This document shows positions 268 through 34,008 of a stretch of 35,842 bases of DNA, piece after piece. The notes under the pieces were generated by a model, which was given only the letters and a program-made list of their open reading frames with translations, searched no databases and had not been told where the DNA came from. The stretch spans positions 1 through 35,842 of the forward strand of contig JAAYSF010000021.1 in assembly GCA_012523975.1 (NCBI GenBank), written 5' to 3'. This DNA is from Veillonellaceae bacterium. Lineage in GTDB: Bacteria; Bacillota; Negativicutes; JAAYSF01. Numbering within the stretch: the first letter of the stretch is position 1; every line of letters begins with the position of its first letter. A program made the translations under genes and the position numbers.

Positions 268-522
268 ATGATTAAGATTTCAATATGTTTCGGTAGTGCA
301 TGTCACCTTCGTGGTGCTTATGGCGTATTAACTGCATTTAAATTCTTACTGGATAAACATGATGTTGAAGGAGTAATTGATTTAGCTGGTGAATTTTGTC
401 AGGGGCGCTGCAATGAGGGCGTTGTAATTAAGATTAATGATGAGATTGTTACTCATGTCTCTGAGAGCAATGTAAGCGAAATTTTTAGAGAAAAAATTTT
501 GGAGCGATTTGTATGCAAATAA
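268..522 (+). CDS. NuoE-like [2Fe-2S] small protein of hydrogenase operon
   Basis: This 84-residue protein has the thioredoxin-like [2Fe-2S] ferredoxin pattern of NuoE/HydC subunits: C7-x4-C12, then C44-x3-C48, all four ligands present. It lacks the N-terminal helical domain of full-length NuoE, so it is the short form usual beside multi-gene [FeFe] hydrogenases. Its likely role is electron transfer to or from the hydrogenase encoded next, whose start overlaps its end by 10 bases, which suggests translational coupling. A second protein of the same design lies at 3379-3615. The ATG at 268 follows a weak TGAGGT site. The fold assignment is secure; the redox partner is inferred from context. Confidence 0.8.
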   Translation: MIKISICFGSACHLRGAYGVLTAFKFLLDKHDVEGVIDLAGEFCQGRCNEGVVIKINDEIVTHVSESNVSEIFREKILERFVCK

Positions 523-2207
523 TTAATACGCGTAATGTTAATTGTAAAGACTGCCATCGTTGTTTACGTTCATGTCCTGTAAAAGCTATCGGCATTAGGC
601 AGGGTCGAGCAAGGGTCTTAGAGGATAAATGTATTCTGTGCGGTAAATGCGTTGCGGAATGCCCGCAGCATGCAAAGCGGCTGACTACTCATTTGCCAGC
701 TATTAAAGAGGCGATTTCCAGTGGGCGCAAGGTCGTTATGAGTCTGGCAACTTCTTTTGTAGGTATTTTTGCTGATTATACACCCACCCAGCTAATGGCA
801 TCAATAAAGGCGCTTGGCTTTGCTGCAGTTGAGGAATCAGCTGTAGGAGCCCAAATACTTTCTCTTTTATACCGTTCCCTTTTAAAAGACTGTCAAGGGA
901 CGGTAATCTCATCAAACTGTCCAGTAATCGTTAATATGGTAAAGAAATATTACCCGCAGTTAGTTGATAATTTAGCGCCGATTGTTTCGCCTATGATGGC
1001 TAACGGTCTTTTACTTAAGCAGAAATATGGAGAAGATGCTTTTGTTGTATTTGCAGGATCATGTATGGCTAAATTTGCTGAACAAAATGAAAAAAGTGAT
1101 AAGCATGCTGTTGATGCCGTCATAACTTTTAGCCAATTGCGCCAGTGGCTTAAACACGCCAAAATAACCCCGAAATTTGTCCCATATGTACCAAAACCGC
1201 TCGGTAACGCTAGGTATTTTCCGGTTGCAGGCGGAGTTTTAAAATCATTTATGGACCATGACACTTTAGATACCGAAATTATTGCTGTTGATGGTATAGA
1301 AAAATGTATGGAAGTTTTCGATAGTTTGACCAAGAAAGAAATTGCGCCTCATTTCATAGAGGCTTTTTCCTGTGTAGGTGGATGTATAGGTGGTCCTGCC
1401 AGTGGAAGTAATCAGTCCATACCGGTGAGAAGGTTGAAAATAATTGAATTTGCAAATCAATATAAAGGACAAGTTACCCTGGAAATTCCTCATTCTTTAG
1501 ATTTCACGTGCAAACATGAACCAACACCTATTGTAAATCCGGAGCCAAGTGAAATAGAGATTAAGAAAATTCTTCAGCGAATTGGTAAGTTTACGAAAGC
1601 TGACGAGAAAAATTGCGGAGCTTGCGGTTATAATACTTGCCGAGCTAAAGCTACGGCAGTATTTCGTGGAGTAGCTGAAATAGATATGTGTATTCCTTAT
1701 ATGCGCTCTAAAGCCGAGTCCTTTGCTAATATAATCGTTGAAAACTCGATAACCGGTATTATTGTTGTTGATGATAAAATGATCATTCAAGAAATTAATC
1801 CAGCAATAAAACGGATGTTCAGCAGCGCTAAACAAATGGAAAAAGGCGATAGTCTAATGGAGTATATCGATTGTTCTGAGTTTGTCAACGTTTCTAATAA
1901 CGGACAAAAAGTTGTTGGTAAACGTGTCGAGTACCCAGAATATAACTTAGTAACTGAGCAGATGATTATCCCGGTACCAGAACACCAATTAGTCATAGTA
2001 GCAATTTCAGATGTTACAGAGCATGAGAAACGCGCAAAAGACTGGGAACAGATGAAAGAGGAAACGGTTGAGAAGGCGACTGACATAATTAATAAACAGA
2101 TGCATGTTGCTCAAGAAATTGCTGGTCTGCTTGGAGAGACGACTGCCGAAACCAAGTCTGCATTGTTGGAACTTATGTGGCTGCTCAAAGGCAAGGAGGA
2201 AAAGTAA
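513..2207 (+). CDS. Sensory-type (group C, HydS-like) [FeFe] hydrogenase with PAS domain
   Basis: The 564-residue protein starts with two [4Fe-4S] ferredoxin motifs (C11/14/17/21 and C40/43/46/50), followed by the H-cluster domain (about 70-310). The three signatures are L1 SSNCP (135-136), L2 SCMAK (C184) and L3 CVGGCIGG (C287, C291). A four-cysteine Fe-S motif follows (C368, C371, C376, C393), then a PAS domain (about 400-500) and a helical tail. In catalytic enzymes L1 reads TSCCP; here the proton-transfer cysteine is Asn135, while the cluster ligand Cys136 is kept. This layout matches the group C putative sensors such as Thermotoga HydS. There is no kinase domain, so the output probably passes to the phosphatase encoded next. 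Assignment to the sensory group is strong; H2 sensing is inferred. Confidence 0.88.
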   Translation: MQIINTRNVNCKDCHRCLRSCPVKAIGIRQGRARVLEDKCILCGKCVAECPQHAKRLTTHLPAIKEAISSGRKVVMSLATSFVGIFADYTPTQLMASIKALGFAAVEESAVGAQILSLLYRSLLKDCQGTVISSNCPVIVNMVKKYYPQLVDNLAPIVSPMMANGLLLKQKYGEDAFVVFAGSCMAKFAEQNEKSDKHAVDAVITFSQLRQWLKHAKITPKFVPYVPKPLGNARYFPVAGGVLKSFMDHDTLDTEIIAVDGIEKCMEVFDSLTKKEIAPHFIEAFSCVGGCIGGPASGSNQSIPVRRLKIIEFANQYKGQVTLEIPHSLDFTCKHEPTPIVNPEPSEIEIKKILQRIGKFTKADEKNCGACGYNTCRAKATAVFRGVAEIDMCIPYMRSKAESFANIIVENSITGIIVVDDKMIIQEINPAIKRMFSSAKQMEKGDSLMEYIDCSEFVNVSNNGQKVVGKRVEYPEYNLVTEQMIIPVPEHQLVIVAISDVTEHEKRAKDWEQMKEETVEKATDIINKQMHVAQEIAGLLGETTAETKSALLELMWLLKGKEEK

Positions 2208-3358
2208 TGAGCCAGCTTCACGCTGATGTAAGTATAGCGCAGTTATCGAAGGTGGGCGAGGAGCTGTGCGGTGATAAAATAGTTGTTACGCATACCAAGG
2301 AAGGTACTATTATAGTTTTGTCTGATGGACTCGGAAGCGGTGTTAAGGCAAATATTCTCGCAACTTTAACAACCAAGATCGCGTCTTCAATGCTGAAACG
2401 CGGAATTCCCTTAGCCGATGTAGTCAGTACAATTGCTGATACCTTGCCGGTTTGCCGTCAGCGTAAAATTGCTTATTCTACCCTTCATATTTTAAAAGTG
2501 GCATCGTCTGGTCTGGTTACAGTAGTTGAATTTGATTGTCCAACTTCTTTTCTTATCCGCGATGGGAAGGTTCAGCCTTTCCAACTAACCGAAAAGGTAA
2601 TTAGCGGAAAACTTATTAAAGAGGGGCAATTATTACTAAGAGAAAACGATTTGATAGTTGCCGTCAGCGATGGTATTATTCACGCAGGGATAGGCGGTTT
2701 ACTAAAGTTGGGCTGGGGCTGGAAGGGAATTGCTGATCAATTACAGTCTATAGCAAGACAAGATTGCAGCGCGAGTTATATTAGTGATAATATAATTCGC
2801 TGCACCGAGGGTTATTATCTTGGTCAGCCAGGAGATGACTCTACTATCGTTACGGTAAAAATGCGTAAGACTCGTCGCTTAACAATTCTTACCGGACCAC
2901 CAGTCGATCGTAGATTTGATGAAAAGCTAGTTAAACGGTTCTTAAGCCAACCCGGCAAGAAGGTTGTAGCTGGCGGTACTACTGCGCATATTGTTAGTAA
3001 GGTATGTAATCGTCCTTTAAAAATGGATATTTCAAGCTATAGTGAATATATTCCGCCTATGGGTCATATTGAAGGGGTAGATCTAGTTACTGAAGGTATT
3101 TTGACTTTAAATGCTGTTCTTGAATGCATCACAAATCATCGTAACGAGAGAGGATGCTTAGAACGAAATGGCGCCAATCTGCTAGCTGAAATGTTACTAG
3201 AGGCTGATAAAATAGATATTTACGCTGGGAAATCAACCAACCCAGCCCATCATAATCCAAGTTTTCCTTTTAAAATTAATGTTAAGCCTCAAGTATTGGC
3301 AAAGCTTCAGGCAGTATTGGAGTCAAAAGGCAAGGAAGTAAGTATTGAGTGGTTTTAA
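2207..3358 (+). CDS. SpoIIE-type PP2C serine/threonine phosphatase of hydrogenase operon
   Basis: A 383-residue protein. The first 220 residues show PPM/SpoIIE phosphatase motifs with metal-binding aspartates: VLSDGLGSG (about 38-46), AVSDGI (152-157) and GDDST (about 209-213). The remaining 160 residues form an extension that starts near a TGPPVD motif and contains VVAGGTTAH; I do not recognise it as a named domain. The start is the ATG at 2207, which overlaps the hydrogenase stop (TAATG) and has AAGGAGG 8 bases upstream. An in-frame start at 2177 has no ribosome site. Phosphatases of this type are repeatedly found beside HydS-like hydrogenases, as in the hfs cluster of Thermoanaerobacterium. 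A role in relaying the sensor signal is inferred. Confidence 0.82.
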   Translation: MSQLHADVSIAQLSKVGEELCGDKIVVTHTKEGTIIVLSDGLGSGVKANILATLTTKIASSMLKRGIPLADVVSTIADTLPVCRQRKIAYSTLHILKVASSGLVTVVEFDCPTSFLIRDGKVQPFQLTEKVISGKLIKEGQLLLRENDLIVAVSDGIIHAGIGGLLKLGWGWKGIADQLQSIARQDCSASYISDNIIRCTEGYYLGQPGDDSTIVTVKMRKTRRLTILTGPPVDRRFDEKLVKRFLSQPGKKVVAGGTTAHIVSKVCNRPLKMDISSYSEYIPPMGHIEGVDLVTEGILTLNAVLECITNHRNERGCLERNGANLLAEMLLEADKIDIYAGKSTNPAHHNPSFPFKINVKPQVLAKLQAVLESKGKEVSIEWF

Positions 3359-3378
3359 TTTGTAGGGGGGCTATCATT

Positions 3379-3615
3379 ATGAATACTTTAACTATAGAAA
3401 TTTGTGTGGGTTCGGCGTGCTATTTATTAGGTGCGCAAGACTTATTAGAAATGATTGAGGGGTTACCGCCAGCAATTAGATCACAAATTGATCTAAGGGG
3501 TGCTAGTTGTTTAAATGCATGCGGGAAAGGACCTAACATTAGAATCAACGGTGAATTAATGTCTGATGTGACGCCAGAAAAGCTTTTGGATATCATTAAT
3601 AATCGCTGTGTTTGA
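3379..3615 (+). CDS. Second NuoE-like [2Fe-2S] small protein
   Basis: A 78-residue protein with the same design as the first gene of the operon: C9-x4-C14 and C44-x3-C48, a thioredoxin-like [2Fe-2S] fold without the extra NuoE helices. The start is the ATG at 3379, preceded by a GGGGGG ribosome site at 3365-3370. An in-frame GTG at 3349 lies inside the upstream phosphatase gene and lacks one. It is followed closely by the catalytic-type hydrogenase, so it probably supplies or takes electrons there. The two paralogues share the cysteine spacing but differ widely elsewhere, so they may serve the two hydrogenases separately. Confidence 0.8.
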   Translation: MNTLTIEICVGSACYLLGAQDLLEMIEGLPPAIRSQIDLRGASCLNACGKGPNIRINGELMSDVTPEKLLDIINNRCV

Positions 3616-3629
3616 ATGGAGGGGATTTT

Positions 3630-5126
3630 GTGTCGCAAGTGACTGAAGTAGTTAAGCTCAGGCGTAGGGTGTTAGTTGAAATTTCTAAGCTTGCATTTGC
3701 GGGTGAAATAGAAAATAAAATAAATGAGATTTTATATAATGTTGTAAGCGAAGATGGGCCTCGCTATCGTTGTTGTGTGCATAAAGAACGAGCGGTACTA
3801 AAAGAACGTATAAAACTAGCTCTTAGTCAGGGCGGTGGCTTAGAGTTATCTGAGGCAGCTAAAAGGGCTTTAGCTGGTAATATCGATGAAATGCCGATTG
3901 TTCACGTTTTGCGGGAGGCATGCGATCAATGTCCAATTGATAAGTTTATTGTAACAAACGCGTGCCGAAATTGTGTTGCCCATAATTGTATAAACAGCTG
4001 TCCAAAGAAAGCTATAATGGTAGTGCAAAACCGTGCATATATCGATAAGAATAAATGCGTAGAATGTGGCTTATGCAAAAAGTCGTGTCAGTATAGTGCT
4101 ATTATTGAAGTAAACCGTCCTTGTGAAGGCGCTTGTGACTTAGGAGCAATCCAAGCCGACAATGATCGCCGGGCTGAAATAGACTATACTAAATGCGTGC
4201 AGTGTGGTAGTTGTAAAACGGCATGTCCATTTGGAGCGATAACTGATCGTTCATCAATAGTGCAGTTGGTAAGTAGTCTAAAATCCAATAAAAAGGTATA
4301 TGCTATGCTTGCTCCATCATTCATTGGTCAATTTGGAGCAAAGGCAAAACCAGGCCAGGTAATTCAGGCTTTAAAGCAAATTGGCTTCGCTGGTGTGTAT
4401 GAGGCATCCTGTGGTGCGGACATTGTAACATTGGAGGAGACTAAAGAGTTTGCATCTTCGGTACCTAGTACATTAAGCTTTATGACGACATCTTGTTGCC
4501 CTGCTTTTGCAGACATGGTCGAGAAACATTTACCTGATATCCAGAAGAACGTTTCAACAACAGTTTCACCCATGATAGCTACCGGCAAAGTAATTAAAAA
4601 TCAAGAGCCTGATGCAGTTGTGGTTTTTATTGGACCGTGTATAGCGAAAAAGGCTGAGGCTGAAAAATACGCTGAAGTTATAGATTACGTTCTCACTTTT
4701 GAGGAACTAATGTGCATGTTGGTCGGCGCTGGTATTAATATTGCTGAGATTGGCGAACATGATTTTGACAGCTCTGCTTCACGTGATGGTAATGCATTTG
4801 CTAGAGCTGGAGGCGTGGCGCAGGCAGTTTTAAATACTGCGGCAGTCCTTGCTCCTGATGTAAAAATAAAAGCTCACCATAGTCAGGGTTTAGGAAATTG
4901 CAAAACTGCGTTAATGCAAATAAATACAGGTAAAATTGATGCTAATTTTTTTGAAGGAATGGCTTGTCAAGGTGGTTGTGTCGGTGGTCCTGGAACGTTG
5001 ACTAACTATAAGGTAACTGGTAAATTAGTTGAAAACTTTGCTGTTGCTTCTAAGGCCGGTATCGCTAATGACAACAGAGATGCGACTGCTGAAATAGAAA
5101 AGCAACATTATTGGCATAGAAAATAG
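3630..5126 (+). CDS. Catalytic-type [FeFe] hydrogenase (group B-like)
   Basis: A 498-residue [FeFe] hydrogenase with all three H-cluster signatures: L1 TTSCCPAF (C289, C290), L2 GPCIAKKAE (C337) and L3 MACQGGCVGGP (C446, C450). The proton-transfer cysteine is intact, so it should turn over H2 and protons. The N-terminal half is cysteine-rich, with ferredoxin-like clusters around 98-124, 143-169 and 189-199, and lacks the plant-type [2Fe-2S] domain of group A enzymes. This fits group B, commonly thought to be ferredoxin-linked. The start is the GTG at 3630, set by ATGGAGGGG at 3617-3624; a TTG at 3612 is in frame but would precede that site. It ends the operon and is the likely effector controlled by the sensor and phosphatase upstream. 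Confidence 0.9.
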   Translation: MSQVTEVVKLRRRVLVEISKLAFAGEIENKINEILYNVVSEDGPRYRCCVHKERAVLKERIKLALSQGGGLELSEAAKRALAGNIDEMPIVHVLREACDQCPIDKFIVTNACRNCVAHNCINSCPKKAIMVVQNRAYIDKNKCVECGLCKKSCQYSAIIEVNRPCEGACDLGAIQADNDRRAEIDYTKCVQCGSCKTACPFGAITDRSSIVQLVSSLKSNKKVYAMLAPSFIGQFGAKAKPGQVIQALKQIGFAGVYEASCGADIVTLEETKEFASSVPSTLSFMTTSCCPAFADMVEKHLPDIQKNVSTTVSPMIATGKVIKNQEPDAVVVFIGPCIAKKAEAEKYAEVIDYVLTFEELMCMLVGAGINIAEIGEHDFDSSASRDGNAFARAGGVAQAVLNTAAVLAPDVKIKAHHSQGLGNCKTALMQINTGKIDANFFEGMACQGGCVGGPGTLTNYKVTGKLVENFAVASKAGIANDNRDATAEIEKQHYWHRK

Positions 5127-6044: not shown

Positions 6045-6106
6045 TGAATAACTTTTGTATTATTTGGTAATACTGGTGGCAGCATGAAAATGAGGAGATG
6101 TTTTCA

Positions 6107-6679
6107 ATGTTGCCACTTTTTAAATACAATAGAAGGCAAATATTGGCTATCGCCGGCGTTGTATTGGCTATTGGCTGCGCAGCTTACTATTTGGTAAGCT
6201 ATAACAATGTCGAAAACAAGCCGCTTGTACCTCAAGAAACTGAGGTCGCCAAGCAGGATAGTAAGATTAAGATAAATTCTAATACCGATTTTGTCCAAAA
6301 AATTGTTTATCTTAAGTGTAAAGATGAGGAAGTGCTGCGAAGCAAGCCTGCAGATAACCTTATTGGCCTTAACTACTTTCAGGTTCAAAAAGTTTATCAA
6401 GGCTGGACTATCGATAAGTTTGACAATCTTGAAGTAGTAATGACACTCAAGGTTGATAGCTTTTGCCGTGAACACGCAAATAATATGTTTATTGGCGTCA
6501 AAGATGGCTATGTTGCAGTGTTTTATGGAAGGCCAGGTCCCAAAGCCATAGTAAAGGAAGTTACTAAAATCTCAATTAACAAGCTGCACCCGCAGGATGC
6601 TGAGGAATTAAAGCGGGGCATGGTTGTACAATCAAGGGAAGAGTTGCTGCAGACATTAGAAGGAATGGAATCTAGGTAG
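6107..6679 (+). CDS. BofC-like protein (forespore-type regulator), membrane-anchored
   Basis: A 190-residue protein with one N-terminal membrane segment (about 9-30) and the rest outside the membrane. The C-terminal part resembles the BofC C-terminal domain: FIGVKDGYVAVFYG, then a KEVTKI strand, and a final REELLQTLEGMES helix. In Bacillus, BofC is a forespore-exported protein that restrains SpoIVB-dependent activation of sigma-K, and bofC also lies next to ruvA there. The start at 6107 is chosen because GAGGAG (6092-6097) is spaced 9 bases from it and abuts the other ATG at 6098. The LAIGC stretch is a poor lipobox. Domain likeness is moderate and the sporulation role is inferred from family and synteny. 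Confidence 0.7.
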   Translation: MLPLFKYNRRQILAIAGVVLAIGCAAYYLVSYNNVENKPLVPQETEVAKQDSKIKINSNTDFVQKIVYLKCKDEEVLRSKPADNLIGLNYFQVQKVYQGWTIDKFDNLEVVMTLKVDSFCREHANNMFIGVKDGYVAVFYGRPGPKAIVKEVTKISINKLHPQDAEELKRGMVVQSREELLQTLEGMESR

Positions 6680-16597: not shown

Positions 16598-16617
16598 AAT
16601 CTAATTAAAGCAATTTT

Positions 16618-16652
16618 GCGGCTGTTGCTAAAAAGCAACAGCCGCGTTTTTA
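16618..16652 (+). terminator. Intrinsic terminator after secF
   Basis: A perfect 12-bp stem (GCGGCTGTTGCT with AGCAACAGCCGC), an AAAA loop, then GTTTTTATT. It ends the secDF unit. Confidence 0.93.
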
Positions 16653-16705
16653 TTCACCAACCTGCCGCTAGCTTAATATCATGTAGCAACAAAGGTGGTG
16701 ATTTA

Positions 16706-17719
16706 ATGTGGATATTACTGCCTGCGCTTTGCGTTGCTGTTGCTCATATTGCAGGTGATAATGCAGCTTTAGTACCGGATATGGCGGCTATTGTTGGCCC
16801 AGATATTTATATAACGACGATATTTGCCTATATGGTGTTTGGTTCAATAATAGCCGGTTTAGCAGCATGGATAGGCGTAAAATCAGGTTATGAATTGTTA
16901 GTAGTTATTAAAAGATTATTCGGCTGTAGGGGAAAAAAGATACTAGCAATAGCTATATTAGCGGTTTGCGTTCCAGCAAGTGCTTTGACAGGGGGATATT
17001 ATTGCGGTTGGGCAATATATAAAATTACTGGTTTGACACCAACGATTGTAGTGCCGATTTGTTTGCTGGTGTTTTCGGTCTTGGCAGCGGGATATGCCTC
17101 TGAACTATTAAAGATATCAAATTATATCAGCCTATCTCTGGTACCAATTGTGATAATAATGATGTTTACAAGAGATCTAAGCAGTATAGGAAATATCAAT
17201 TTTTCGGCAAATGTTGATTGGCTGTTAGTTTGTGCGCTGATTGGCTATAATGTCGGGGGAATGCGCCCGGTTTTGATTGTTGAGACCGCGGCATACTTGA
17301 CCCAGAAGGGGTATAAAGCGATATTCTTAGTTATAATCGCCAAACTTATTGAAGGTATTATTACACTTGTTATGGCTCATCTAGTTATCGTCGCACAAGT
17401 TCATGGTCCCTTAGCATTGTCAGGTGTTTATGCCAGTACTTTTGGGAGTAACGCGGTTTATCTGTTTGATATAATATTATTTTGTACATTTCTGAATACC
17501 ATGGCACCGGCTATGATGGTAAACGCTAAGCAAGTAAGCATATTAACAGGAGTTTCGTTTTGGCCTGCTCTTTTAATCGCGTCAGTGTTAGTATTCTTCG
17601 GTGCTTTTGCTGATTTCAAGACGATAATTGAGGTTATGAGCTTTACCGGCCTTTTTATGGCAGTTTTTATTGTTTATACAGCATATTTTTTACATAAGAA
17701 TGGGATTAAACAGTCATAA
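16706..17719 (+). CDS. Multi-pass membrane protein, YkvI/APC-like transporter
   Basis: A 338-residue protein with about ten hydrophobic segments and few soluble stretches. It starts at ATG 16706 with AAAGGTGGTGA at 16690-16700; an upstream in-frame start overlaps the secF terminator. Its length, the glycine-rich first helices and the paired repeats recall YkvI-like proteins of the APC/LeuT-fold superfamily, but I see no motif fixing a substrate. It may form a pair with the next gene. Transporter fold: plausible; substrate: unknown. Confidence 0.6.
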   Translation: MWILLPALCVAVAHIAGDNAALVPDMAAIVGPDIYITTIFAYMVFGSIIAGLAAWIGVKSGYELLVVIKRLFGCRGKKILAIAILAVCVPASALTGGYYCGWAIYKITGLTPTIVVPICLLVFSVLAAGYASELLKISNYISLSLVPIVIIMMFTRDLSSIGNINFSANVDWLLVCALIGYNVGGMRPVLIVETAAYLTQKGYKAIFLVIIAKLIEGIITLVMAHLVIVAQVHGPLALSGVYASTFGSNAVYLFDIILFCTFLNTMAPAMMVNAKQVSILTGVSFWPALLIASVLVFFGAFADFKTIIEVMSFTGLFMAVFIVYTAYFLHKNGIKQS

Positions 17720-17763
17720 TTTAAATGTAGTGATTATCTATAATAGGCAGAGGGCGAAATATA

Positions 17764-18231
17764 TTGGTTCTCAACTTTTTTGCTTTTTTAATAATGTTCA
17801 TTGGTCTGTTTTTTACTTTGTCGCCGCGTTTACCGGGAACACTGCTTATTATTGGTGTTGCCTTTTTTTATAGCGCGCTTGATGGGTTTTCAGCTTTAAG
17901 TCCCTGGCTAGTGATTTCGTTACTATCTCTAACATTGCTGGCTGAGATAGGTGGACGGGTTGCGCGGATCTATTTAACTAAAGAATTCAAAGTGCCAATT
18001 ATATTCAGTACAGATACTACAGCCGGCAATCTGGCTGGGATTGTCGCTTCTGATGCTTTATTTGGTCCTTTGCTAGGGACTATTATTTGGGAACTTATTG
18101 TCGGCAAAACGTTATTACCTCGTCTTGATACTGTTTTTAGGGTGCTTTCAAGGTTAGCTTTTGTAGCTCTAATCAGATTTGGGTGCGGTCTCATTATGGT
18201 GGTGCTTATAACAATATATATACTGCAGTGA
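17764..18231 (+). CDS. DUF456 family membrane protein
   Basis: A 155-residue membrane protein with the DUF456 pattern: two N-terminal hydrophobic hairpins around LSPRLPGTLLIIGVAFFYSA, a soluble basic loop (GGRVARIYLTKEFK), then glycine-rich membrane segments including FGPLLGTIIWEL. The function of the family is unknown. The start is TTG at 17764 with AGAGGG at 17749-17754. It lies 44 bases after the transporter-like gene and is probably cotranscribed with it. Confidence 0.72.
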   Translation: MVLNFFAFLIMFIGLFFTLSPRLPGTLLIIGVAFFYSALDGFSALSPWLVISLLSLTLLAEIGGRVARIYLTKEFKVPIIFSTDTTAGNLAGIVASDALFGPLLGTIIWELIVGKTLLPRLDTVFRVLSRLAFVALIRFGCGLIMVVLITIYILQ

Positions 18232-18262: not shown

Positions 18263-18341
18263 CTTTACTGTTAACTTATACCATCAGCATTAGAAGTACT
18301 CAGAATGGACAAAATAAGAAAAAAATGCGGGAGGGGTTTCG

Positions 18342-19790
18342 TTGAAATCATATTATAAACTCATCCGGCACGATGGAAACCGGGAACTATTTAGGGCAGT
18401 GGACATGTCAGTTACTGCCCTTACTAACGGATACCCCTTTCATATCCATGCCCAAGGTCTACGCGGCACTGGTAAAACAAGTATTATGAGAGCAGTGAAA
18501 GAAATTCTGCCCTCGATAGTTAGAATAAAAAATTGCATCTATAATTGCCACCCAGCAGCTCCCCATTGTCCGGAACACAGGAATTTATCACCAGAAGCAA
18601 TTGCTGCAATCGGAACTGAAACTGTGCCCTGTCCATTTCTGGAAATATCTCATTCGGCAAAAATCGGTACTGTTGTAGGAAGCATAGATCTTGCACGGCT
18701 TACCGATAAGTCGAACTCGATTGCTGCCTTGCTTCCGGGTACCATTCCTAAGGCGCATCGTGGGATTATCTTTGTTGATGAAATTAATCGCCTAGCTGAT
18801 ACTTCGCCGGAAATAGCGGACGTTTTGCTCGATTTAATGGGGACTAAGCCAGGGCGTATTCAGATTGAAGAGACCGGTTTACCGACTGTTGAGCTACCTG
18901 TTTCGGTAGCTGTATGGGCGGCATCAAATCCAGATGAGGATCCGGGCCCGTTAGTTCAAATAAGAAAACAGTTATCAGATCGTTTCGATCTTGGTGTAAA
19001 CATGGGACGACCTAGTGACTATCAGGCTGTTATGGCAATTCTTGAGCATAAAAATCAAAATACATCCGTCGAAGAACATAAACCGATCAAAGTGGTAGGC
19101 AATTTAAGTGACATAACATGCGACTCTACTATCAGGAATGTATTTGCTAGTATTTATGTCGACTTTGGTTTGGAAAGTTTGCGAGCGGTAGAAAGCATGG
19201 AAACAGCTGCCAGTCTGTCGGCCCTAATTGCAGGTCGAAAAGCAATAACTATTGATGATATAATCGGGACAGTTCCGTTAGTGCTTAATAACAGAGCTGA
19301 TAATGGAACAATAACGAGTATTCTAAAATACTTAGATGGGTTGAACATTAGTAACAACGTTAAGAATGCCGTGCAGCCAATTCCAGTTCAAGATTCATTT
19401 AAAGAGGAACTAAGCAAAACAGACCGGCAAGATAATAATTGGTGGGCGAAGCTTTGGGGAAGTATAAAAGGTAAATTTAAATTAAGTCGTTTTGCAGCAA
19501 AACCGTTAATAAATCCACCTTTACCCAATAAGATAAATGAAGTAAGACCGTCAGCACCGCCTAAGCCAAAAAAGTCATCAGAAATGTCACAACAAGGGGA
19601 TAATTCAAGCTCCAGCACTACAAGTAATAATTCTAACATGTCGACTAGGCAGACAAAAAGTCATTCGTCGCCAGGCGAGCAGGAAAAAATTGCTAATCCA
19701 ACTCAGGTTGTTATTCAGGCTCCTCCCAATCAGGCAACTCCTTTATCTAAATTATCGATCGAGCATTTTGTAACAAGTGAGGATAAATAA
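18342..19790 (+). CDS. ChlI/MoxR-like AAA+ ATPase, partner of VWA protein
   Basis: The 482-residue protein has an AAA+ domain (about 1-320) with Walker A GLRGTGKTS (39-47), Walker B IIFVDEINR (142-150), sensor 1 AASNPDE (about 194-200) and an arginine-rich RKQLSDRF stretch (208-215). An insert with C65, C69, C76, H79 and C97 resembles the cysteine-containing insert of Mg-chelatase subunit I. Residues 380-465 are rich in Ser, Pro and Asn and look disordered. The TTG at 18342 has GGGAGGGG (18329-18336) before it. The VWA gene follows 4 bases later. Such AAA+/VWA pairs act as metal chelatases or remodelling chaperones. No ChlH or CobN subunit lies nearby, so a chelatase role is unsupported and the target is unknown. 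Confidence 0.75.
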   Translation: MKSYYKLIRHDGNRELFRAVDMSVTALTNGYPFHIHAQGLRGTGKTSIMRAVKEILPSIVRIKNCIYNCHPAAPHCPEHRNLSPEAIAAIGTETVPCPFLEISHSAKIGTVVGSIDLARLTDKSNSIAALLPGTIPKAHRGIIFVDEINRLADTSPEIADVLLDLMGTKPGRIQIEETGLPTVELPVSVAVWAASNPDEDPGPLVQIRKQLSDRFDLGVNMGRPSDYQAVMAILEHKNQNTSVEEHKPIKVVGNLSDITCDSTIRNVFASIYVDFGLESLRAVESMETAASLSALIAGRKAITIDDIIGTVPLVLNNRADNGTITSILKYLDGLNISNNVKNAVQPIPVQDSFKEELSKTDRQDNNWWAKLWGSIKGKFKLSRFAAKPLINPPLPNKINEVRPSAPPKPKKSSEMSQQGDNSSSSTTSNNSNMSTRQTKSHSSPGEQEKIANPTQVVIQAPPNQATPLSKLSIEHFVTSEDK

Positions 19791-19794
19791 TCGC

Positions 19795-21561
19795 ATGGTT
19801 GAGAATTGTTGGGATTACAGAAACTCGTGTCTACTGCCCAGTCTTGCGATGCCGGCAGGAAGGGTTAAGGCTTTATTAGCCAAAAATAAAGGGGCTCGAA
19901 TCGGCCAAAGTGCTGTGGTGAGTAAAAACATGCATACCTTTCATCCCAGTACGCCGGAAAAGGTCAACATATTACAAGGTGTTGATGCTGGACAGGCATT
20001 TTATCAGCGCAAGGAAATTGGAAGTGTTTGTCATATTGATGTTTTTCACCAGTTTGGCAAGGTCGATCATCATCTAGTAGCAGCTAATATTAAAAAGGCA
20101 GTAGAGGCTTATAACTTACATTTCTCCGTTAATAAAATGCTTTTTAATCATTTTGGTCGTGATGCCGTTGATGCCGATTATATTGATATTCAGACGGGGA
20201 CTGGCGGGGGACGTATTACAGGCAGCCTGACTTACGGTCAAAAATTGTCACTAAGAAGGGCACATGAGAATCATGTCCATATTGCTTTGACAGTATCAAA
20301 TGATCACATAGCATGCCTTTTTTATATAATCTTGGCGGTTGAAGAGGCTATTATGCTATCAGGCCTTGAGCTTCGACGCAATGAAGAGATAGTTCATGTA
20401 AAAGGAAAGCAAAGTAAAGCCAGCGATAATTCTCCGTATGCCGATCAATCTGATTCTTATATGCAGGACAAAGAATCAAGTAGTATGTCATCTCCTTGTG
20501 CTAAAAAGCACCAATTTACCCAAAATGCTGCTATGTTGTCCGATAGCTTTGACACGGTTAAAGATGTTAAGGAGATGCTTGCTGAGATTGAAAATGATGA
20601 CGATCGCAAAAAAATTGAAAAGAAGTTTGATAATAACGGCAATGCGGAGCAGATGATAAATTCACTATCTGGTCTGGGAATTGTTGAGGTAAAAGATAAC
20701 AAAATCAGATTGACGAACTACGGGAGAGAATTCAAACAATATCTAGATAAAAACTTGACAGACGTTCAGTCACATCTTCGGCAAATGTTAAAATCATTAA
20801 AACCGGTATCCAAGCTGCCAAGCAGCCTAAAAACCATTCAGTCTGATAATGCTATTGGGAACGGACCAAAGATATTACTGCCGTTTAAAGATACCACGAG
20901 GTATTCCGAATTTGCAGTTGCCGAAACTGTAATGGCGGCAGCTAGGAGGAGTATCCAAATTAATTGTGATAGGCTAGGTTTTGATCATTCTGACTTACGC
21001 GTTTATATTAGGCAGCAACGCCCAAAATCAGAAGTGCTATTACTAATTGATGCAAGTGCGAGCATGAAAGGGCAGCGGATTTTGGCTGCAAAATTCCTTG
21101 TTCGACATTTATTGCTGTCCACCCTCGATAAAATTAGTGTTATTACTTTTCAAAACTATAAAGCTTGTGTGCAAGTTCAGTTTACTAGAGACTTTCAGCA
21201 AGTTGAGGATAGTTTGAGGAATATAAAGGTTTACGGTGCTACACCTTTAGCGTTAGGGTTAAAAACAAGTTTAAATTATTTGCAAACGGTCAAGACGAAA
21301 AATCCTATGATAATCTTATTAACCGACGGAGTCCCTACCTTGGCCGATATGAGTAGAGACCCGATTGCAGATTCTTTGGTCTACGCCAATAAAATAAAAG
21401 AATCGGGCTATGGGTTTATGTGTATAGGTTTGAAGCCTCATCGAAATTATTTGGCAAAACTGGCTGAGGTTGCTGGTGGCAAGATTTACTTATTAGACGA
21501 GTTAGAAAAACAGGTGCTGATTAATGCAGCGTGGCTAGAACGAAGTGAACGCTGCTTATAA
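19795..21561 (+). CDS. VWA-domain protein with MIDAS site, partner of AAA+ ATPase
   Basis: A 588-residue protein. Residues 1-200 form a His- and Gly-rich region I do not recognise (TGTGGGRITGS, HENHVHIALTV). A low-complexity linker (about 200-235) follows, then a winged-helix-like stretch (about 255-320), then a C-terminal VWA domain from about 410. Its MIDAS is complete: D419-x-S421-x-S423 in IDASAS, T483 and D511 in LTDGVP. ChlD-type partners have an N-terminal AAA domain before VWA; this one has no Walker motif. ATG 19795 is preferred over GTG 19777, because GTGAGGA (19777-19783) then serves as ribosome site. Its last codons form half of a terminator stem. The domain is clear; the function is unknown. 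Confidence 0.78.
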   Translation: MVENCWDYRNSCLLPSLAMPAGRVKALLAKNKGARIGQSAVVSKNMHTFHPSTPEKVNILQGVDAGQAFYQRKEIGSVCHIDVFHQFGKVDHHLVAANIKKAVEAYNLHFSVNKMLFNHFGRDAVDADYIDIQTGTGGGRITGSLTYGQKLSLRRAHENHVHIALTVSNDHIACLFYIILAVEEAIMLSGLELRRNEEIVHVKGKQSKASDNSPYADQSDSYMQDKESSSMSSPCAKKHQFTQNAAMLSDSFDTVKDVKEMLAEIENDDDRKKIEKKFDNNGNAEQMINSLSGLGIVEVKDNKIRLTNYGREFKQYLDKNLTDVQSHLRQMLKSLKPVSKLPSSLKTIQSDNAIGNGPKILLPFKDTTRYSEFAVAETVMAAARRSIQINCDRLGFDHSDLRVYIRQQRPKSEVLLLIDASASMKGQRILAAKFLVRHLLLSTLDKISVITFQNYKACVQVQFTRDFQQVEDSLRNIKVYGATPLALGLKTSLNYLQTVKTKNPMIILLTDGVPTLADMSRDPIADSLVYANKIKESGYGFMCIGLKPHRNYLAKLAEVAGGKIYLLDELEKQVLINAAWLERSERCL

Positions 21562-33822: not shown

Positions 33823-33828
33823 AGCTTT

Positions 33829-34008
33829 AACCCTACTGTGCGCGTGAAGGCCAATGTTTTGAGCCAACACAATTACTGCGGGAGCCTGACTCTGATTATG
33901 GCGTGTAAGCCCTTGTTAAGGGACACATAAAATAAGCAGGAAGGCACCCACCTGCCTAGGGCAGGTTCAAAACAGCGGTGATACGGCACGGTGGGGTTTA
34001 ATTTTTTT
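33829..34008 (+). ncRNA. ssrS: 6S RNA
   Basis: The region after aspS has no gene but shows 6S features. AACCCTACTGTGC (33829-33841) pairs with GCACGGTGGGGTT (33986-33998) over 13 bp with two G-U pairs, as the closing stem. The 3' part carries AAGGCACCCACCTG and GGTTCAAAACAGCGGT, which match conserved 6S segments of Firmicutes. The size is about 180 bases and TAATTTTTTT follows. In B. subtilis 6S-1 (bsrA) also lies just after aspS. 6S RNA mimics an open promoter and binds sigma-A RNA polymerase. The ends are estimated; a second terminator at 34028-34060 could mark a longer precursor. Confidence 0.88.

Follow-up and report, generated by a model that had tools for sequence, protein, structure and literature searches.

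The locus examined here raises the question of what an AAA+ ATPase resembling a chelatase subunit does when its gene directly precedes that of a MIDAS-bearing VWA protein in a bacterium of the class Negativicutes. A first-pass annotation of the window (the whole stretch of DNA analysed, 35,842 nucleotides, from a host genome of 2.47 Mb) had called the pair an orphan, undescribed AAA+/VWA module that might be related to spores.

The gene pair and its setting

The ATPase ORF (18342-19790) and the VWA ORF (19795-21561) both lie on the forward strand, as do all features described below for the pair, and form a two-gene unit with an intergenic gap of 4 bases (19791-19794), as had been claimed. The ATPase start codon is a TTG downstream of GGGAGGGG. 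The VWA gene starts with the ATG at 19795, a choice backed by the alignment of 23 orthologues; an alternative, longer GTG ORF from 19777 would run over the ATPase stop. The weak terminator before the pair and the strong one after it, both proposed earlier, did not hold up. A terminator scan found none at either border, and three candidate border hairpins were rejected because they folded no better than shuffled sequence (z -0.56, +0.24, and -0.75).

Elsewhere in the window, positions 268-5126 hold an [FeFe]-hydrogenase cluster with two 2Fe-2S thioredoxin-like subunits, a PAS-domain hydrogenase (513-2207), and a SpoIIE-type phosphatase (2177-3358), a composition that suggests a hydrogen-sensing signalling system; no link was found between the pair and the hydrogenase genes of the window. 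A 6S RNA (Rfam RF00013, 113 bits) is located at 33827-34001.

The ATPase

The product of the first gene (482 amino acids; 18342-19790) was assigned to the ChlI branch of the AAA+ ATPases based on matches in Pfam, NCBIfam, and the PDB, on its position in a tree, and on its motifs. It exceeds the Pfam cut-offs for Mg_chelatase (PF01078; 24.6 bits, cut-off 20.3) and AAA_lid_2 (26.1 bits, cut-off 22.7), and ChlI/BchI are its sole solved relatives in a PDB search, so that the earlier placement in the chelatase branch stands. The primary structure contains the Walker A motif GLRGTGKT, the Walker B motif FVDEINRL, and the arginine finger DRFD, along with the motif C-x3-C-x6-C-x2-H (CIYNCHPAAPHCPEH), which is invariant among the pair ATPases. 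The intact Walker A, Walker B, and arginine finger, together with an adjoining and co-conserved MIDAS VWA gene, are the sequence characteristics of the AAA+/VWA remodelling class.

At its C-terminus (19700-19787) the protein carries a conserved short motif (VVIQAPPNQATPLSKLSIEHFVTSEDK), of the type APPxxARPLxxLxxxxLIxxE, after a low-complexity linker rich in Ser and Asn. A regular expression for this motif matched 66 of 74 ATPase tails, compared to 7% of shuffled tails, and six further tails show it on inspection. The motif is probably a docking peptide. One genome (G020) has the ATPase gene (L093, 9407-10522) without the VWA gene, and in its product the tail motif is gone and both the Walker B motif and the arginine finger are altered. 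This joint loss of partner gene, tail motif, and active-site residues is counted in favor of a machine built from ATPase and VWA protein.

The VWA protein

The product of the second gene (588 amino acids; 19795-21561) consists of three parts, as delimited by the alignment of 23 orthologues and an AlphaFold2 model (pLDDT 81). The C-terminal VWA domain (21034-21558) matches PF13519 above the cut-off (3e-14), and its nearest solved fold, according to Foldseek with the whole-protein model, is the VWA domain of NorD (9qh8). The MIDAS is complete, with D419-S421-S423, T483, and D511 conserved at 98-100% in 77 members. Profile searches revealed no AAA domain in the protein; the earlier description of a MIDAS-bearing partner that lacks the AAA domain of ChlD was therefore correct on both counts. 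The middle segment (residues 262-323; 20578-20763) resembles a winged helix; its profile match is weak (E value 0.004), the model has helices and a hairpin at this position, and the alignments show the segment to be missing from some members.

The N-terminal domain (residues 15-227; 19837-20475) had no convincing match to Pfam in any of 74 members. Because VWA matches swamped the whole-protein Foldseek run, this domain was modelled separately (pLDDT 93, pTM 0.91), and a fold search of the PDB and of the viral BFVD gave no match with an E value of 0.001 or below (best 0.37 and 0.24). It is apparently new, a domain without known family or solved fold. Residues H47, D64, H80, D82, H85, T134, G137, G139, H160, H162, and E183 are invariant or nearly so. 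The conserved His, Asp, and Glu residues among them (H47, D64, H80, D82, H85, H160, H162, and E183) alternate along strands and a helix of the model, which suggests a putative metal or catalytic site.

In one genome (G128), a locus (L151, 6170-13340) carries one ATPase gene and, downstream of it, three VWA paralogues in tandem; the N-terminal domain of the VWA protein is matched five times in the genome as a whole.

Relation to chelatases

The closest sequence relatives of the ATPase and of the VWA domain are BchI/ChlI, BchD/ChlD, and the putative cobaltochelatase TIGR02442. The pair might be taken for the motor of a metal chelatase or cobaltochelatase which drives a CobN/ChlH-type subunit encoded elsewhere and inserts metal into a tetrapyrrole. 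Chelatase models are indeed the best-scoring ones for the ATPase and the VWA domain (TIGR02442, 114.8 and 99.2 bits), but these scores are far below the cut-off of 779; with the curated models the scores are 89 (TIGR02030), 77 (TIGR02031), and 115 bits (TIGR02442) against cut-offs of 467, 500, and 779, respectively. A search of the whole genome for CobN/ChlH (PF02514) gave no match, either next to the pair, where the first-pass annotation had already noted the lack of a large chelatase subunit, or at any other position. Among 100 relatives, CobN/ChlH was uncorrelated with the pair (9/25 carriers versus 26/75 non-carriers), and most of the carriers with CobN also encode separate BchI or fused chelatase ATPases. 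In the tree, the pair ATPases form a clade of their own (100/100 support), separate from BchI and from the fused cobaltochelatase-type ATPases. Their Walker A motif reads GTGKT, in contrast to the GTAKS of most chelatases sampled, and in place of their CCCH motif the fused-type chelatases have C-x3-C-x8-C-x2-C and BchI has none. Of the characteristics of a ChlI-ChlD-ChlH-type chelatase, the pair has the ChlI-branch ATPase; it has neither the catalytic subunit nor a D subunit combining AAA and VWA domains, and does not reach the curated score. With its scores below cut-off, no CobN/ChlH, a separate clade, a VWA protein without AAA domain, and no correlation, the chelatase reading is nearly excluded.

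A defence or mobile-element role is also unsupported. Searches with PADLOC defence profiles gave no match for the ATPase and, for the VWA protein, a weak winged-helix match alone, and plasmid and phage searches gave neither a full-length match to a plasmid nor any match to a phage.

Comparison with known AAA+/VWA systems

AAA+/VWA pairs are already known. In Rea1/Midasin, a single giant eukaryotic chain, an AAA+ ring works with a MIDAS VWA that grips the client, a likeness to the pair that is drawn from the literature. RavA-ViaA of E. coli belongs to another ATPase branch and has another N-terminal domain, a distinction made from prior knowledge and not by profile. This two-gene AAA+/VWA unit is thought to act on membrane enzymes (PMC9489729, PMC10585395). 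A close parallel in architecture is NorQ-NorD, a MoxR-type AAA+ protein with a VWA partner which inserts iron into nitric oxide reductase (PMC9976466, PMC13036017); its proposed mechanism is a twisting of the VWA partner that the ring drives (PMC13036017). Like the pair, it is a two-gene unit in which the partner protein has its VWA domain at the C-terminal end and, besides, a linker and an additional N-terminal domain, and the NorD VWA is the top Foldseek match of the VWA protein. In contrast, the pair has a ChlI-branch rather than a MoxR ATPase, an N-terminal domain without a fold match in the PDB, and a forespore-type promoter (see below). The pair is set outside both the chelatases and NorQ-NorD, and no orthology to a characterized chelatase or chaperone system was found. 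The pair is marked by its separate ATPase clade, its domain without known family or solved fold, and a link to sporulation that did not turn up in the literature searched.

Distribution and gene order

In a survey of 100 relatives within the class, the ATPase was found in 24 genomes, the VWA protein in 24, and both in 23; public contigs with the pair include those of Sporomusa, Pelosinus, Lucifera, and Anaerospora. Both genes are complete and adjacent in nearly all loci examined. Signs of decay were also seen: in G058, Sporomusa ovata, and Sporomusa sp. KB1, all that is left of the VWA protein is a short N-terminal stretch (L094, L115, and L116).

The common gene order is secD-secF-membrane protein-DUF456-[ATPase-VWA]-recJ-apt-relA, and flanking secDF and/or recJ-relA are likewise seen in Symbiobacterium and in unclassified Bacillota. 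In the window, the Pfam-less membrane protein and the DUF456 protein 5' of the pair occupy 16616-18231; their position is conserved in most Negativicutes, and they were not seen at that position outside the class. In other clades the pair lies upstream of a GerMN-domain gene (6 loci, most of them with murI and rph next in line), upstream of gerAB-gerAA-gerAC in 2 genomes, or adjoining mnmG. The germination domains in these neighborhoods were checked, and the position of a GerMN gene or a gerA-type operon directly 3' of the pair is counted in favor of a role in spores. Since the adjacency of ATPase and VWA gene survives such changes of gene order, the two genes are one unit; an association of unrelated genes by chance is refuted by its persistence across many families and several gene orders. 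The pair is an ancient unit in the endospore-forming Bacillota, its two genes being inherited together. The label "orphan" is misleading for a pair that sits within a gene order conserved across the phylum. Most of its neighbors (secDF, recJ, apt, and relA) are housekeeping genes, a point against the forespore role proposed below.

The most conserved downstream neighbor is recJ, which is found 3' of the pair in 17 of another 39 loci from the phylum. Together with the winged-helix-like segment, which could bind DNA, this would fit a remodeller that works with RecJ on the DNA of the forespore chromosome or in its repair. We consider such a role very unlikely, as recJ is not beside the pair in other clades, starts 120 bases beyond it in the window, and the winged-helix-like segment is not present in all members.

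Link to sporulation

The phylogenetic profile of the pair against sporulation, a check proposed by the first-pass annotation, revealed an association with SpoIVA in both class and phylum. Within the class, SpoIVA is encoded by 24 of 25 carriers of at least one pair gene versus 16 of 75 other genomes (Fisher 1.6e-11), and across 398 genomes of the phylum by 112 of 116 with the VWA-protein N-terminal domain, by which carriers were defined, versus 224 of 282 without it (3.4e-6); both p-values are too small, because related genomes are not independent and shared ancestry inflates the counts. The one class carrier in which SpoIVA was not seen is a MAG (G001) that has the pair and is 92% complete. 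Among carrier genomes reached via public contigs, 17 of 18 have SpoIVA, and the one without it is apparently that incomplete MAG again. The pair is missing from nearly all non-sporeforming relatives. Sixteen of the 40 sporeformers of the class are without it, and since many sporeformers lack the pair it is dispensable for sporulation as such.

A forespore-type promoter

Upstream of the ATPase gene, at 18287-18316, lies a sigma-F-type promoter consisting of GCATT (-35), 15 bases, and GGACAAAATA (-10), the latter ending 25 bases 5' of the start. The consensus used is that of B. subtilis, with a GYATA-like -35 and the -10 GGNNANAHTR, and both elements are present. The -10 consensus was fixed beforehand and sought in a window from 150 to 18 bases before the start, with other genes of the same loci as controls (about 7% positive). 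It precedes the pair in 22/29 loci of the Negativicutes versus 22/307 control genes (p 1e-16) and in 17/41 loci of other Bacillota versus 23/348 (p 1e-8); a scan of 150 bases on the opposite strand gave 0/29 and 3/41. The element lies mostly 31-60 bases 5' of the start, in lineages differing in gene order. A weight matrix trained on Negativicutes scored held-out loci above controls (p 2e-6). In the GerMN-adjacent clade the element was found in one locus only. A conserved G upstream of the -10 of sigma F promoters is recorded in PMC3789822.

The -35 is less clear-cut. An initial sigma F pattern with the -35 restricted to GYATA or GYATG gave few matches upstream of the pair; the wider -35 pattern was chosen post hoc, after the motif had been spotted by eye in upstream sequences. 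Patterns for sigma E, sigma K, and strict sigma G showed no clear enrichment there. In the window, GNAT-N16-GGNNANAHTR has three matches: before the ATPase gene, before bofC, and within a coding region. Over the genome, the full pattern has 15 matches compared to 13 for the reversed control and is non-specific when taken alone; in only four of these 15 cases does a gene with a ribosome-binding site follow, and the pair is one of the four. As a positive control we used bofC, a forespore gene in B. subtilis. In the window, bofC (BofC_C domain; 6046-6679) has a sigma-F-like promoter, GAATA-N15-GGTAATACTG, 22 bases 5' of its start. A similar site lies 5' of sigG in the host genome. Only two sigma factors exceed the SigBFG cut-off in this genome, and there is thus no apparent SigB.

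These data bear on a vegetative explanation, in which a MoxR/VWA-type maturation factor, comparable to RavA-ViaA or NorQ-NorD, would serve a respiratory or metabolic metalloenzyme, and the spore link would reflect the shared ancestry of sporeforming anaerobes. The NorD VWA as nearest solved fold, the invariant residues suggestive of a metal site, and the clades without a visible sigma-F element are compatible with it. We nonetheless regard it as unlikely, given that the forespore-type -10 element is conserved across differing gene orders, that nearly all non-sporeforming relatives are without the pair, and that no enzyme gene is found among the conserved neighbors.

Proposed role

The reading we favor, with a probability of roughly 0.6, is that the pair would be produced in the forespore under sigma F and would serve endospore-forming Bacillota as a dedicated machine for AAA+/VWA remodelling. 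The suggestion of an undescribed, perhaps spore-related module is in this respect supported by the profile, the forespore-type promoter, and the germination-gene neighbors in other lineages, if not in its "orphan" part. Comparison of the sequences gives a conserved unit that is separate from the chelatases, restricted to sporeformers, and preceded by a conserved promoter element; from these we infer that the two proteins form a complex, that sigma F controls the pair in vivo, that there is a metal site, and what kind of client is served. Sigma F would switch the pair on in the forespore. The ATPase would assemble as a hexameric ring and hold the VWA protein with the help of the C-terminal tail motif, and ATP hydrolysis would move the VWA protein, by analogy with NorQ-NorD. 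The N-terminal domain, probably the part that handles client or metal, and the MIDAS would then act on a forespore client, most likely a metalloprotein or a complex of the forespore membrane. Metal insertion is a possible role, with which the invariant His/Asp/Glu set of the N-terminal domain would be compatible. A fuller version, in which the ChlI-branch ring drives a VWA protein bearing a metal-site domain of new fold toward a spore-specific client, for instance for metal loading or for assembly of a membrane complex or the germination apparatus, we put forward tentatively.

Catalogues of sporulation genes have been drawn mostly from Bacillus and Clostridium, and the pair is spread, with its forespore-type promoter, through many other sporeforming lineages. 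A literature search found no paper on the pair, and Galperin's survey (PMC3533761) makes no mention of chelatase-like, MoxR, or von Willebrand genes. If the proposed reading is true, the forespore would gain an energy-driven remodelling machine, and with it a domain that has no solved relative.
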